Assembly: GCF_000166335.1 (NCBI RefSeq)
Contig: NC_014657.1
Location: 186,001-250,000, forward strand
From: Caldicellulosiruptor owensensis OL
GTDB lineage: Bacteria; Bacillota; Thermoanaerobacteria; Caldicellulosiruptorales; Caldicellulosiruptoraceae
DNA: 64,000 bases
Reading direction: 5' to 3'
Shown in pieces: positions 9,603-61,611 of this stretch. Position numbers and translations under genes: made by a program. The stretch's first letter is position 1, and each line of letters begins with the position of its first letter. The notes beneath the pieces were generated by a model, which was not told the origin of the DNA, did no database searches, and worked only from the letters and a program-made list of their open reading frames with translations.

Positions 9603-9741
9603 CAACAGTACCCCTTGAGATTTTAGGGAAACTTTACAAAGTTGTTTTTCGGGTAGTATACAAAAAGAAACATTTATTATACAATTTCTATATAAAAAAT
9701 TGTTTTGGCTTTTCTTTTTTGAGAACTCAAGGGGGATTTTT

Positions 9742-10677
9742 ATGAAGTTAAAATTGATAACCATTTTACTGGCAATTCTTTGTATGCTTGTATCATGCAC
9801 GCCTCAGAAGCCAAAAACAAAAGAATATTCACAGGAAGGAAGGTGGATGGTTTTAGATTACAAAGGAAAGGCTTTTATCCTTGACTGTGACAGTTCTTCT
9901 ATTATCATCAGAGGGAAGGTTACATCTGACATTACTGTTAGGTACGTCAAAAAAGTAATATGGACATATAATGAAACCATCAGCAATACTGGAGAGCCTG
10001 ATGAGAAAGAAGCCCAAAAGATTTTTGATGACATGGATGCCAGCATTGAAAATGAAGTTGATAGAGTTTATGTAAAGGCAAGAGCATACGGCACTGCTGA
10101 GGCAGTTTTAGCTAACAAAGTTTCAAATCCAAAGAGAGAATTTGAATTTGAGGTTTTCCTTCCGCAGGACTGCAAAATAGTTGTTCAGAACAACAGCGGC
10201 AATGTAAGTGTTTCGGATATTAAAGGCGGTTCTGTTTACATAGTAAATGGAGTGGGAAACATTGCAGTGACAAACACGTATGCACCACTTGACATTAAAA
10301 ATGGTGAGGGTGATGTAAAGCTTGACTATGTTAGCGGCAATTTTCTAATTAACAATGGAAAGGGCAATATAAACCTCAAAATCGAAAAAACAAGCAGTTT
10401 CAAAGTTTCAACAACAAAAGGAAATATTACAGTGAAAATAGAAAAGATAAGTGGATATGGTAATTTGTCTATTGTAAATGCGGGTGAAGGAGATGTTACA
10501 TTTGACGTAGGAAAAGATGTCAAAGCAAAAATTAAGGTGTTAACACAAGGAAAAATAAAATCTGACTTTGATTTTATAAAAACAGGAAATAGCTACTATA
10601 TAGACCTTGATTCAGGGGGAAATACTATTGAGATAACAAACCTAAAAGGTTTTGTGAGGATATATAAAAATTACTGA
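9742..10677 (+). CDS. DUF4097-type beta-strand-repeat lipoprotein
   Basis: A 311-residue lipoprotein: lysine-containing N-terminus, hydrophobic segment and lipobox LVSC with Cys18 as the predicted lipidation site. The mature part is a series of short beta-strand repeats rich in Asn/Gly (such as NGVGNIAVTN and NGEGDVKLDY), typical of DUF4097 adhesin-like beta-solenoids. It probably sits on the outer face of the cytoplasmic membrane. ATG at 9742 follows GGGGGA; an earlier in-frame start at 9700 would put 14 residues before a perfect lipoprotein signal and is rejected. It appears to be monocistronic. Confidence 0.8.
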   Translation: MKLKLITILLAILCMLVSCTPQKPKTKEYSQEGRWMVLDYKGKAFILDCDSSSIIIRGKVTSDITVRYVKKVIWTYNETISNTGEPDEKEAQKIFDDMDASIENEVDRVYVKARAYGTAEAVLANKVSNPKREFEFEVFLPQDCKIVVQNNSGNVSVSDIKGGSVYIVNGVGNIAVTNTYAPLDIKNGEGDVKLDYVSGNFLINNGKGNINLKIEKTSSFKVSTTKGNITVKIEKISGYGNLSIVNAGEGDVTFDVGKDVKAKIKVLTQGKIKSDFDFIKTGNSYYIDLDSGGNTIEITNLKGFVRIYKNY

Positions 10678-59106: not shown

Positions 59107-59700
59107 ATGGGAATGATAACATATACAATTGACAACAGGTTATATATAAATGTCACCAATAAATGCACAAATTCATGCATATTCTGTATAAGAAACTCCG
59201 AGAAAGGACTTGGCGAAGGCTATGACCTCTGGCTTGAAAAAGACCCAACAGCAGAGGAGATACTTTTTGAGATAAAAGACCCGCAAAAGTATGATGAGAT
59301 AGTATTTTGCGGCTATGGTGAACCCCTAATAAAACTTGATGTTGTAATTGAAGTTGCAAAAAAGCTAAAAGAGATATCTTCAGTGCCGCTCAGGGTCAAT
59401 ACAAACGGTCATGCATCTTATATTCACAAAAAAAACGTACCACAGCTTTTATCAGGGTTTATTGACAGGATATCAATAAGTCTCAATGCTCCAGATAAAG
59501 AGAAGTACAATGAAATCTGCAGACCTTTTGATAAGGACATATATGACCATGTAATTGAGTTTATAAAGGAAAGTAGAAAGTATATAAAAGAGGTTTGGGT
59601 TTCGTGTGTTGATATAATTTCAAAAGAAGAGATAGAAGAATGTAAAAAAATTGCACACAAGCTGGGTGTTAATTTTAAGCTGAGAGCTTATGAAGAGTGA
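59107..59700 (+). CDS. TatD-associated radical SAM protein
   Basis: 197 residues. The [4Fe-4S] motif is CTNSCIFC (Cys-x3-Cys-x2-Cys) near the N-terminus; FCGYGEPLIKLD matches the GGE-type SAM-binding strand, and RVNTNGHA and ISLNAPDKEKYNEICRP are typical. Its position after tatD agrees with the TIGR04038 family. Substrate unknown. No C-terminal SPASM domain. Start at 59107 or the next Met at 59113. Confidence 0.85.
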   Translation: MGMITYTIDNRLYINVTNKCTNSCIFCIRNSEKGLGEGYDLWLEKDPTAEEILFEIKDPQKYDEIVFCGYGEPLIKLDVVIEVAKKLKEISSVPLRVNTNGHASYIHKKNVPQLLSGFIDRISISLNAPDKEKYNEICRPFDKDIYDHVIEFIKESRKYIKEVWVSCVDIISKEEIEECKKIAHKLGVNFKLRAYEE

Positions 59701-59867
59701 AACTGAAAAAACGGAGAAGTTGTTATAAGAGATGATAAGAGCATTTTTGTGTATAGTTAAAGCATACAAAATAAACACTGATTTTTATCAAAATCGGTCA
59801 AATATTCACATAGCCACATAGCTAAAAAAGCCGAAAGAAATTTGAAAAAGTTCATTTATTTTTGGTA

Positions 59868-59896
59868 TTGATTGGTGTATACAAAAAACATATAAT
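59868..59896 (+). promoter_or_regulatory. Promoter of a candidate small RNA
   Basis: TTGATT, 17 bases, TATAAT in an otherwise empty intergenic region; transcription would begin near 59903. Confidence 0.5.
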
Positions 59897-59902
59897 TATA
59901 AC

Positions 59903-60060
59903 TGTAAACAGCAGATATCAAGAAATTGCGGACAACCCCCTTGTAACTGTTATTTTTTGAAAACTTACATAAGTTCAGAATCCCCCCGTTCATTTCCTCC
60001 TTTTATATAGAAAGCGGGCAGAAGCTCATAAAATAGAAGAGCTTCTGCCCGCTTGCGATT
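59903..60060 (+). ncRNA. Candidate small RNA with C-rich loops
   Basis: The 435-base gap 59701-60135 has no open frame. Between the promoter at 59868-59896 and the hairpin at 60012-60054 the sequence folds as ACAA-CCCCC-TTGT (59932-59944), AACTT-acat-AAGTT (59962-59975) and GAAT-CCCCCC-GTTC (59978-59991), then a CCTCC stretch at 59996-60000. C-rich single-stranded loops are how several Firmicutes sRNAs (for example FsrA, RsaE/RoxS) pair with ribosome sites. It matches no RNA family I can name. Alternative: an unusual 5' leader of the PIG-L gene. Confidence 0.4.
60012..60054 (+). terminator. Strong hairpin, probable terminator of the candidate RNA
   Basis: AAGCGGGCAGAAGCTC pairs perfectly over 16 bases with GAGCTTCTGCCCGCTT around an 11-base loop; it is followed by GCGATTTT, so the T-run is weak. 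Confidence 0.65.
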
Positions 60061-60135
60061 TTAGAAGAATTTTTAATAGAAAATGGGTAGAGGATAGTGT
60101 AAAATAAAAAAAGTATATTTTGATTACAAAGGAGT

Positions 60136-61611
60136 ATGGCAAAGTATATGCCACAGTTTAAAGTTAAAAGTGCTGAAGGTTATGTGTACAAAAAACCTCA
60201 GAGGGAAAGAAGAATAAGGTTTAAGCGCAAATATATTTTATACGCGTTTATTATCTGGATTATTGCAAATGTTTTTATGTTTTTAGTAAAAGAATATGTT
60301 TCGAACTATTTTTTCTCAGCTCAGCTTCCACAGCTTCAGGTTGAAAATTACAAGAGAATACTCATATTTGCACCACACTGTGACGATGAAACTTTGTCTT
60401 CTGCAGGAGTAATACAAAAAGCACTTTTGTACGGTAGCAAGGTTAAAGTTGTTGTTATGACAAACGGTGATGGGTTTACCCGTGCTGCGGGTCAGAACTT
60501 CAGGAAGATCAGGTTAAAGCCTGATGATTACATAAGATTCGGTTATCTTCGTCAAAAAGAGACGATTCACGCACTTGAAGACCTGGGCTTGAGAAGAGAG
60601 GACATAATATTCCTGGGATATCCTGATAGGGGTTTAAGGTATTTATGGGAAAAATATTTTGATTCAAAGGAGAGCTATTTTAATTCTTTAACACGCACAT
60701 TCAAAAGTCCATATTCAAACTCCTATCAGAAAGGAGTAGAATACAAAGGAATAAACGTTGTAAAGAATATTCAGAGCATAATAAAATCATTTGAACCTGA
60801 TTTAATCATATATCCATACTCACGCGACCAGCATCCTGACCACTGGGCAACATCTGCTTTTGTTAAATTTTCAATCCTTACGCTAAATTATAAATGTGAA
60901 GAGTGGCAGTATCTTGTACACAGAGGGGACTGGCCAACTCCTTTTGGTAAACACCCTCAGATGTATCTTGTTCCTCCTTTTAAGCTTGCATTTACAGATA
61001 CAAATTGGTATCAGATATCCCTGGATGACTATATGATAGAAAGAAAATCAAATTCAATATCAGACTACCACTCTCAGATGAAGGTTATGAGAGGATTTTT
61101 GGAGGCATTTGTTCGTCAGAATGAATTATTTGCAAAATTGAATAACGAATATGCAAAAAAATATGAGGGGGACAACCTGTTTTCAGAAAAATATTTAGTT
61201 AGTAAAGAGCCGACACACGACATATGGTCGCTCATTTTTGAAAAAGGTGCTGATATTGAAGCGATATTTGCAGCGCACGATAACAAGAACATATACATAG
61301 GAATCAAAATGGTCGGCTCTGCAAAAAAACTTATTTCGTACTATCTTCACATAAGAGCATTTGAAGATTGCAAATATCTTGGAAGAATCTATGTTCAGGT
61401 TTCTGGCAGTAAAATGAATGCAATAAAGACCATGACAAGCCCTGCTTTTTCAGTTCAAAATGCCAAGATGCGCAGAAAAAAGAATCAAATTGAGATAGTA
61501 TTTCCTAAAAAAGATTTACAAAATCCGAACATGCTTTATTTGAGCGTACGCACAGAATTTCTTGGTCGTCAACTTGATAGAAGTGCATGGAAGGTAATTG
61601 AGTTTAAATAG
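60136..61611 (+). CDS. Membrane-anchored PIG-L/LmbE deacetylase family protein
   Basis: 491 residues. A basic N-terminus and one transmembrane helix (about 33-52) place the rest outside the cell. The PIG-L domain has the zinc motif FAPHCDDE (about 78-85) and YSRDQHPDHWA (about 233-243), so it could deacetylate GlcNAc-type sugars or related amides. The C-terminal 130 residues (from about 360: HDIWSLIFEKGADIEAIFAAHD) form a beta-rich domain that resembles CBM9/DOMON-like sugar-binding folds. AAAGGAG immediately precedes the ATG. Substrate unknown. Confidence 0.85.
   Translation: MAKYMPQFKVKSAEGYVYKKPQRERRIRFKRKYILYAFIIWIIANVFMFLVKEYVSNYFFSAQLPQLQVENYKRILIFAPHCDDETLSSAGVIQKALLYGSKVKVVVMTNGDGFTRAAGQNFRKIRLKPDDYIRFGYLRQKETIHALEDLGLRREDIIFLGYPDRGLRYLWEKYFDSKESYFNSLTRTFKSPYSNSYQKGVEYKGINVVKNIQSIIKSFEPDLIIYPYSRDQHPDHWATSAFVKFSILTLNYKCEEWQYLVHRGDWPTPFGKHPQMYLVPPFKLAFTDTNWYQISLDDYMIERKSNSISDYHSQMKVMRGFLEAFVRQNELFAKLNNEYAKKYEGDNLFSEKYLVSKEPTHDIWSLIFEKGADIEAIFAAHDNKNIYIGIKMVGSAKKLISYYLHIRAFEDCKYLGRIYVQVSGSKMNAIKTMTSPAFSVQNAKMRRKKNQIEIVFPKKDLQNPNMLYLSVRTEFLGRQLDRSAWKVIEFK

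Follow-up and report, generated by a model that had tools for sequence, protein, structure and literature searches.

A TatD-associated radical SAM gene (59107-59700) is separated by 435 bp of gene-free sequence from a PIG-L deacetylase gene (60136-61611, plus strand, Pfam PF02585). Does this gap encode a regulatory RNA, and on which gene would such an RNA act? Positions are numbered within the window, the 64,000-nt stretch of DNA that was analysed, and the genome carrying it is referred to as G000. A preliminary description of this gap had reported a near-consensus promoter followed by short hairpins with C5 and C6 loops, an open CCTCC stretch and a perfect 16-pair hairpin, and all of these are present in the G000 sequence. 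The promoter scan placed TTGATT-17-TATAAT at 59868-59896 on the plus strand (-35 at 59868-59873, -10 at 59891-59896). Downstream lie ACAA-CCCCC-TTGT, AACTT/AAGTT and GAAT-CCCCCC-GTTC (the last with one G-U pair), CCTCC at 59996-60000 and the 16-bp hairpin at 60012-60054. No tRNA or tmRNA was found.

A conserved, predicted small-RNA gene missing from Rfam

The locus was compared across 12 genomes of the genus and G012, the sole genome examined from a second genus of the family and the outgroup to the other 12. The block at 59860-60063, comprising the promoter, the C-rich RNA and the 16-bp hairpin, was found in 12/12 genus genomes and in G012, a degree of conservation far above chance expectation. 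A covariance model built from these 13 sequences matched in the same 13 genomes and in 0/24 other genomes of the class. As the preliminary description had claimed, no known RNA family corresponds: no Rfam family reached its gathering score in the window, and a permissive threshold (E <= 5) returned chance-level matches only. The searchable open literature likewise yielded no small RNA of this kind for such a thermophile genus. A conserved small-RNA gene, missing from Rfam, is supported at this locus.

The 37-base promoter block TTTTGGTATTGATTGGTGTATACAAAAAACATATAAT (59860-59896) has at most one base changed in each of the other 12 genomes, spacer included. With up to three mismatches allowed, G000 and G012 each contain a single copy, and this search revealed no convincing further promoter with the same block in either genome. 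The exact promoter pattern had no match in the genome contig collection, from which close relatives are perhaps absent. On the basis of conservation and the covariance model, a small RNA of ~160 nt is predicted at 59903-60063 on the plus strand, its 5' end placed from the -10 box and its 3' end uncertain. About 50 bases 5' of the -35 element, a plus-strand box (GGTCAAATATTCACATAGCCACAT / GGTCAAnTATTCACATAnCCACAT, 59796-59819) is conserved throughout the genus in the 13-genome alignment and, judged by that conservation, is possibly a regulator site.

A protein-coding explanation of this conservation was also considered, in the form of a small gene on the opposite strand. In G000 the minus strand at 59856-59993, antisense to the RNA, carries an SD (AAAGGAGG), an ATG and 45 open codons. 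Among the 13 genomes, however, the frame is broken or shifted, the ATG is lost in G002, and the most conserved block has no codon pattern. A frame that is not maintained in relatives largely refutes this candidate, and we regard it as very improbable.

C-rich stretches are conserved as sequence, not as hairpin loops

In the 13-genome alignment the conserved parts of the RNA are UGCGGACAACCCCCUUG, a 3' module UUCAUUUCCUCCUUUUAUAUA (59989-60009, kept in 13/13 genomes) and the long 16-bp hairpin, and the 5' end and linker are variable and contain insertions. The C5, C6 (59982-59987) and CCUCC stretches are conserved in the genus. The predicted fold of the RNA beats 200 shuffles (z -6.25), largely owing to the long hairpin. 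Counting pairs in the alignment, 99.5% of cells are paired in this hairpin, with both sides changed at three pairs, compared to 83, 59 and 59% in the three short helices, which were accordingly rejected as conserved structure. Since the short helices are poorly paired across relatives, the C-rich stretches are conserved as sequence and not as hairpin loops. Of the loops proposed in the preliminary description, the C-runs have therefore been retained as conserved sequence in the genus (in the outgroup C6 is missing) and the hairpins around them have not; the covariation analysis it had suggested upheld the long hairpin only. Stems of 4 bp would in any case hardly form at thermophile growth temperatures.

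The 16-bp hairpin is the probable 3' end of the RNA, and termination there is plausible as a prediction. Like the promoter, it is conserved, but it lacks a normal U-tract, being followed by GCGAUUUUA; three of five other post-gene hairpins in the window are followed by six T within the first eight bases.

Complementarity to the ribosome-binding site of a Nudix hydrolase gene

To find targets, the sequence complementary to the conserved 5' portion (AAGGGGGTTGTCC) was searched for in the 12 genus genomes, allowing one mismatch. Besides the RNA locus, a single place was common to 12/12 genomes, in the form AAAGGGGTTGTCC. This shared place comprises the SD and the adjoining spacer of a gene for a Nudix hydrolase, reading AAAGGGGTTGTCCGCA and then a TTG or GTG start. 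Other matches to the search string were mostly post-gene hairpins or coding sequence and were discarded, as they were not retained in all genomes; in G000 and G008 no other TTGTCCGCA was located at an SD. In G000 the antisense segment UGCGGACAACCCC (59927-59939, plus strand) pairs with GGGGUUGUCCGCA over 13 contiguous bp in sense orientation. The pairing site lies outside the window at G000:C1:761199-761211, directly before the gene start at G000:C1:761212 and ~515 kb away from the RNA locus. Comparison with NCBIfam gave the Nudix enzyme sub-threshold MutT and RNA pyrophosphohydrolase matches only.

Alignment of the Nudix leaders showed that the complementarity is kept in 12/12 genus genomes, and within the 5' half of the RNA, which varies elsewhere, the invariant block is the region that pairs with this leader. 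Across the genus the contiguous stem has a strength of 26 to 37 kcal/mol; it stops at or beside the start codon, in some cases inside it. A 9-bp core (AAUGCGGAC with GUCCGCAUU) remains in G012, where the SD part is no longer contiguously paired. The 23 Nudix orthologues found in class genomes that lack the RNA have no TCCGC within the 45-base leader; one such leader reads, for example, AGGGGGCTTATATATG. The target box is thus absent where the RNA is absent. The preliminary description had pointed out that C-rich loops can bind ribosome sites, and the genome search did lead to one SD that a C-rich stretch of the RNA complements. The specific element is nevertheless UGCGGACAACCCC and not the loops, the C-run being just its SD-binding end.

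The Nudix leader has two further features. A second conserved G-box, TAGGGGGAAATTT, lies near the likely transcription start (L077, ~1455-1470), and the start region contains a promoter-like TTGAAT-17-TATTAT. From sequence, this G-box might pair with the C6 or CCUCC stretch of the RNA, and GGGGGA, close to the leader's 5' end, with C6; stems of the C6 type (about -16 kcal/mol) occur frequently at SDs.

How unusual is the Nudix duplex?

Contiguous stems were scored at 37 °C, unrestricted duplex prediction having been dropped as too permissive to discriminate. The 5' 60 nt of the RNA reached 30.8 kcal/mol with the Nudix leader; the highest value among 35 further translation starts of the window was 18.2. 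Gumbel fits for this 5' portion gave an expectation of 0.004-0.015 equal stems among about 2300 translation starts and ~0.1 per whole genome, values that extrapolate from one window and precede any counting of conservation, which is the main support. For the whole RNA, 3' module included, 0.07 to 1.7 equal stems are expected among the genome's translation starts, since the 3' module can pair with SDs in general. What carries the case is therefore the 5' segment, together with conservation. When leaders were swapped between genomes, own RNA-leader pairs beat swapped ones (P 0.007), a result dominated by G012, in a comparison whose genomes all come from one clade. Duplex position -1 covaries only partly with the UUG or GUG start, and folding at 37 °C predicts the antisense segment to be only about half unpaired.

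The RNA is probably a unit separate from PIG-L

In both genera the RNA lies 5' to PIG-L and is co-oriented with it, which raises the question of whether it is instead a cis-acting PIG-L leader (attenuator or riboswitch-like), with the Nudix complementarity arising by chance or as a side activity. A hairpin without a typical U-tract would permit read-through, and the SD of PIG-L, AAAGGAG, is a potential partner of CUCCUUU. Direct adjacency, however, holds in 12/13 genomes and not in all: in G011 an IS200/IS605-like element of ~1.7 kb (L120 1828-3430, whose ORFs were judged by eye to be TnpA-like and TnpB-like) splits the RNA from PIG-L and leaves the RNA intact. PIG-L also has a separate promoter-like site of its own at 60077-60105 (promoter scan), the sequence from the hairpin to PIG-L diverges between subclades, and a leader would not account for complementarity to another gene's SD in all genus genomes. 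The intact RNA in G011 and the promoter-like site before PIG-L favour a separate unit, without proving it, and the insertion makes the plain PIG-L leader named in the preliminary description as a refutation less likely. We consider the cis-acting leader unlikely, and PIG-L probably lies outside the unit.

On the other side of the RNA the upstream neighbour differs between clades. In G002, G003, G004, G008 and G009 (loci L029, L030, L031, L032 and L034, viewed over 1.3 kb 5' of the RNA) two other genes take the place of the radical SAM gene, one coding for a protein of 182 aa and the other for a longer partner.

The 3' module and the possibility of broader targets

The 3' module contains the string CCUCCUUU, which we take to be the usual anti-SD string at the 16S 3' end. 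The likeness extends to this short string only, and the module is not ribosomal. A small RNA with broad targets could be envisaged on this basis, its C-rich and anti-SD-like modules pairing with many G-rich ribosome-binding sites, the Nudix site being one among them. Conservation of the 3' module in 13 genomes and its fit to generic SDs would agree with such a role, and RoxS and RsaE act in a broad-target manner (PMC4409812, PMC8216469). Searches for extended partners of the 3' module, however, returned the locus itself and control-level noise, none of it conserved. The SD string AAGGGGGATTTTT, followed by ATG, occurs at window positions 9729-9745, identical in at least seven genomes, and the same string precedes a ribulokinase-like gene (L146, L147). 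Each of these SDs might form a 10-bp stem with the C6 region, yet stems of this kind are frequent and no stronger than typical SD matches. We regard a broad-target RNA as improbable, and hold the same low expectation of a lineage-specific RNA that combines two devices, an antisense segment for one ribosome site and a general mimic of the 16S anti-Shine-Dalgarno sequence. If true, this last arrangement could tie the Nudix enzyme to overall translation load.

A model for repression of Nudix translation

We consider it likely that the locus encodes a ~160-nt trans-acting antisense small RNA and that this RNA prevents the Nudix mRNA from being translated. In this model the conserved sigma-70-type promoter would drive a small RNA as far as the stable 3' hairpin. 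Its 5' segment UGCGGACAACCCC would pair with the Nudix SD and spacer (GGGGUUGUCCGCA, then the UUG or GUG start codon), and the duplex would hide the ribosome-binding site, so that ribosomes are kept off and initiation of translation is blocked. Conservation of the RNA, its conserved complementarity and the lack of the target box in genomes without the RNA are computed results; the model's transcription step, duplex formation inside cells, repressive effect and promoter-controlling signal are inferred. Should the model hold, a Nudix hydrolase would be placed under RNA control, and a long GC-rich duplex would have to function at high temperature. The Nudix superfamily includes RNA 5'-end and nucleotide-pool cleaning enzymes. 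The RNA would then come with a ready testable target.

Comparison with known C-rich small RNAs

That the RNA stays complementary to the SD of the distant Nudix gene in 12/12 genus genomes agrees with the functional class of C-rich, SD-blocking trans-acting sRNAs. FsrA and CsfG are controlled by Fur or by sporulation sigma factors. In Bacillus subtilis both offer C-rich regions to mRNAs, and in CsfG unpaired CU-rich stretches are conserved (PMC8216469, PMC3574147). The RNA described here resembles them in its C-rich regions, but it has no Rfam match and no sequence relation to them was found. RsaE/RoxS of Staphylococcus and Bacillus has C-rich regions that can pair with SDs and inhibit translation initiation (PMC4409812). 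The likeness here is that both are stand-alone Gram-positive sRNAs with several C-rich regions able to pair with SDs, although for our RNA both properties are predicted. Membership of that family is not indicated: the RNA has no match to the Rfam model, belongs to another lineage and has other neighbours, its C-rich parts lie outside conserved stem-loops, and it carries one 13-nt target-specific segment. If the model is correct, the C-rich SD-blocking strategy of Bacillus and Staphylococcus would extend to an anaerobic thermophile-type lineage. Most likely this RNA works like RsaE/RoxS from outside that family, by an analogy of mechanism only.
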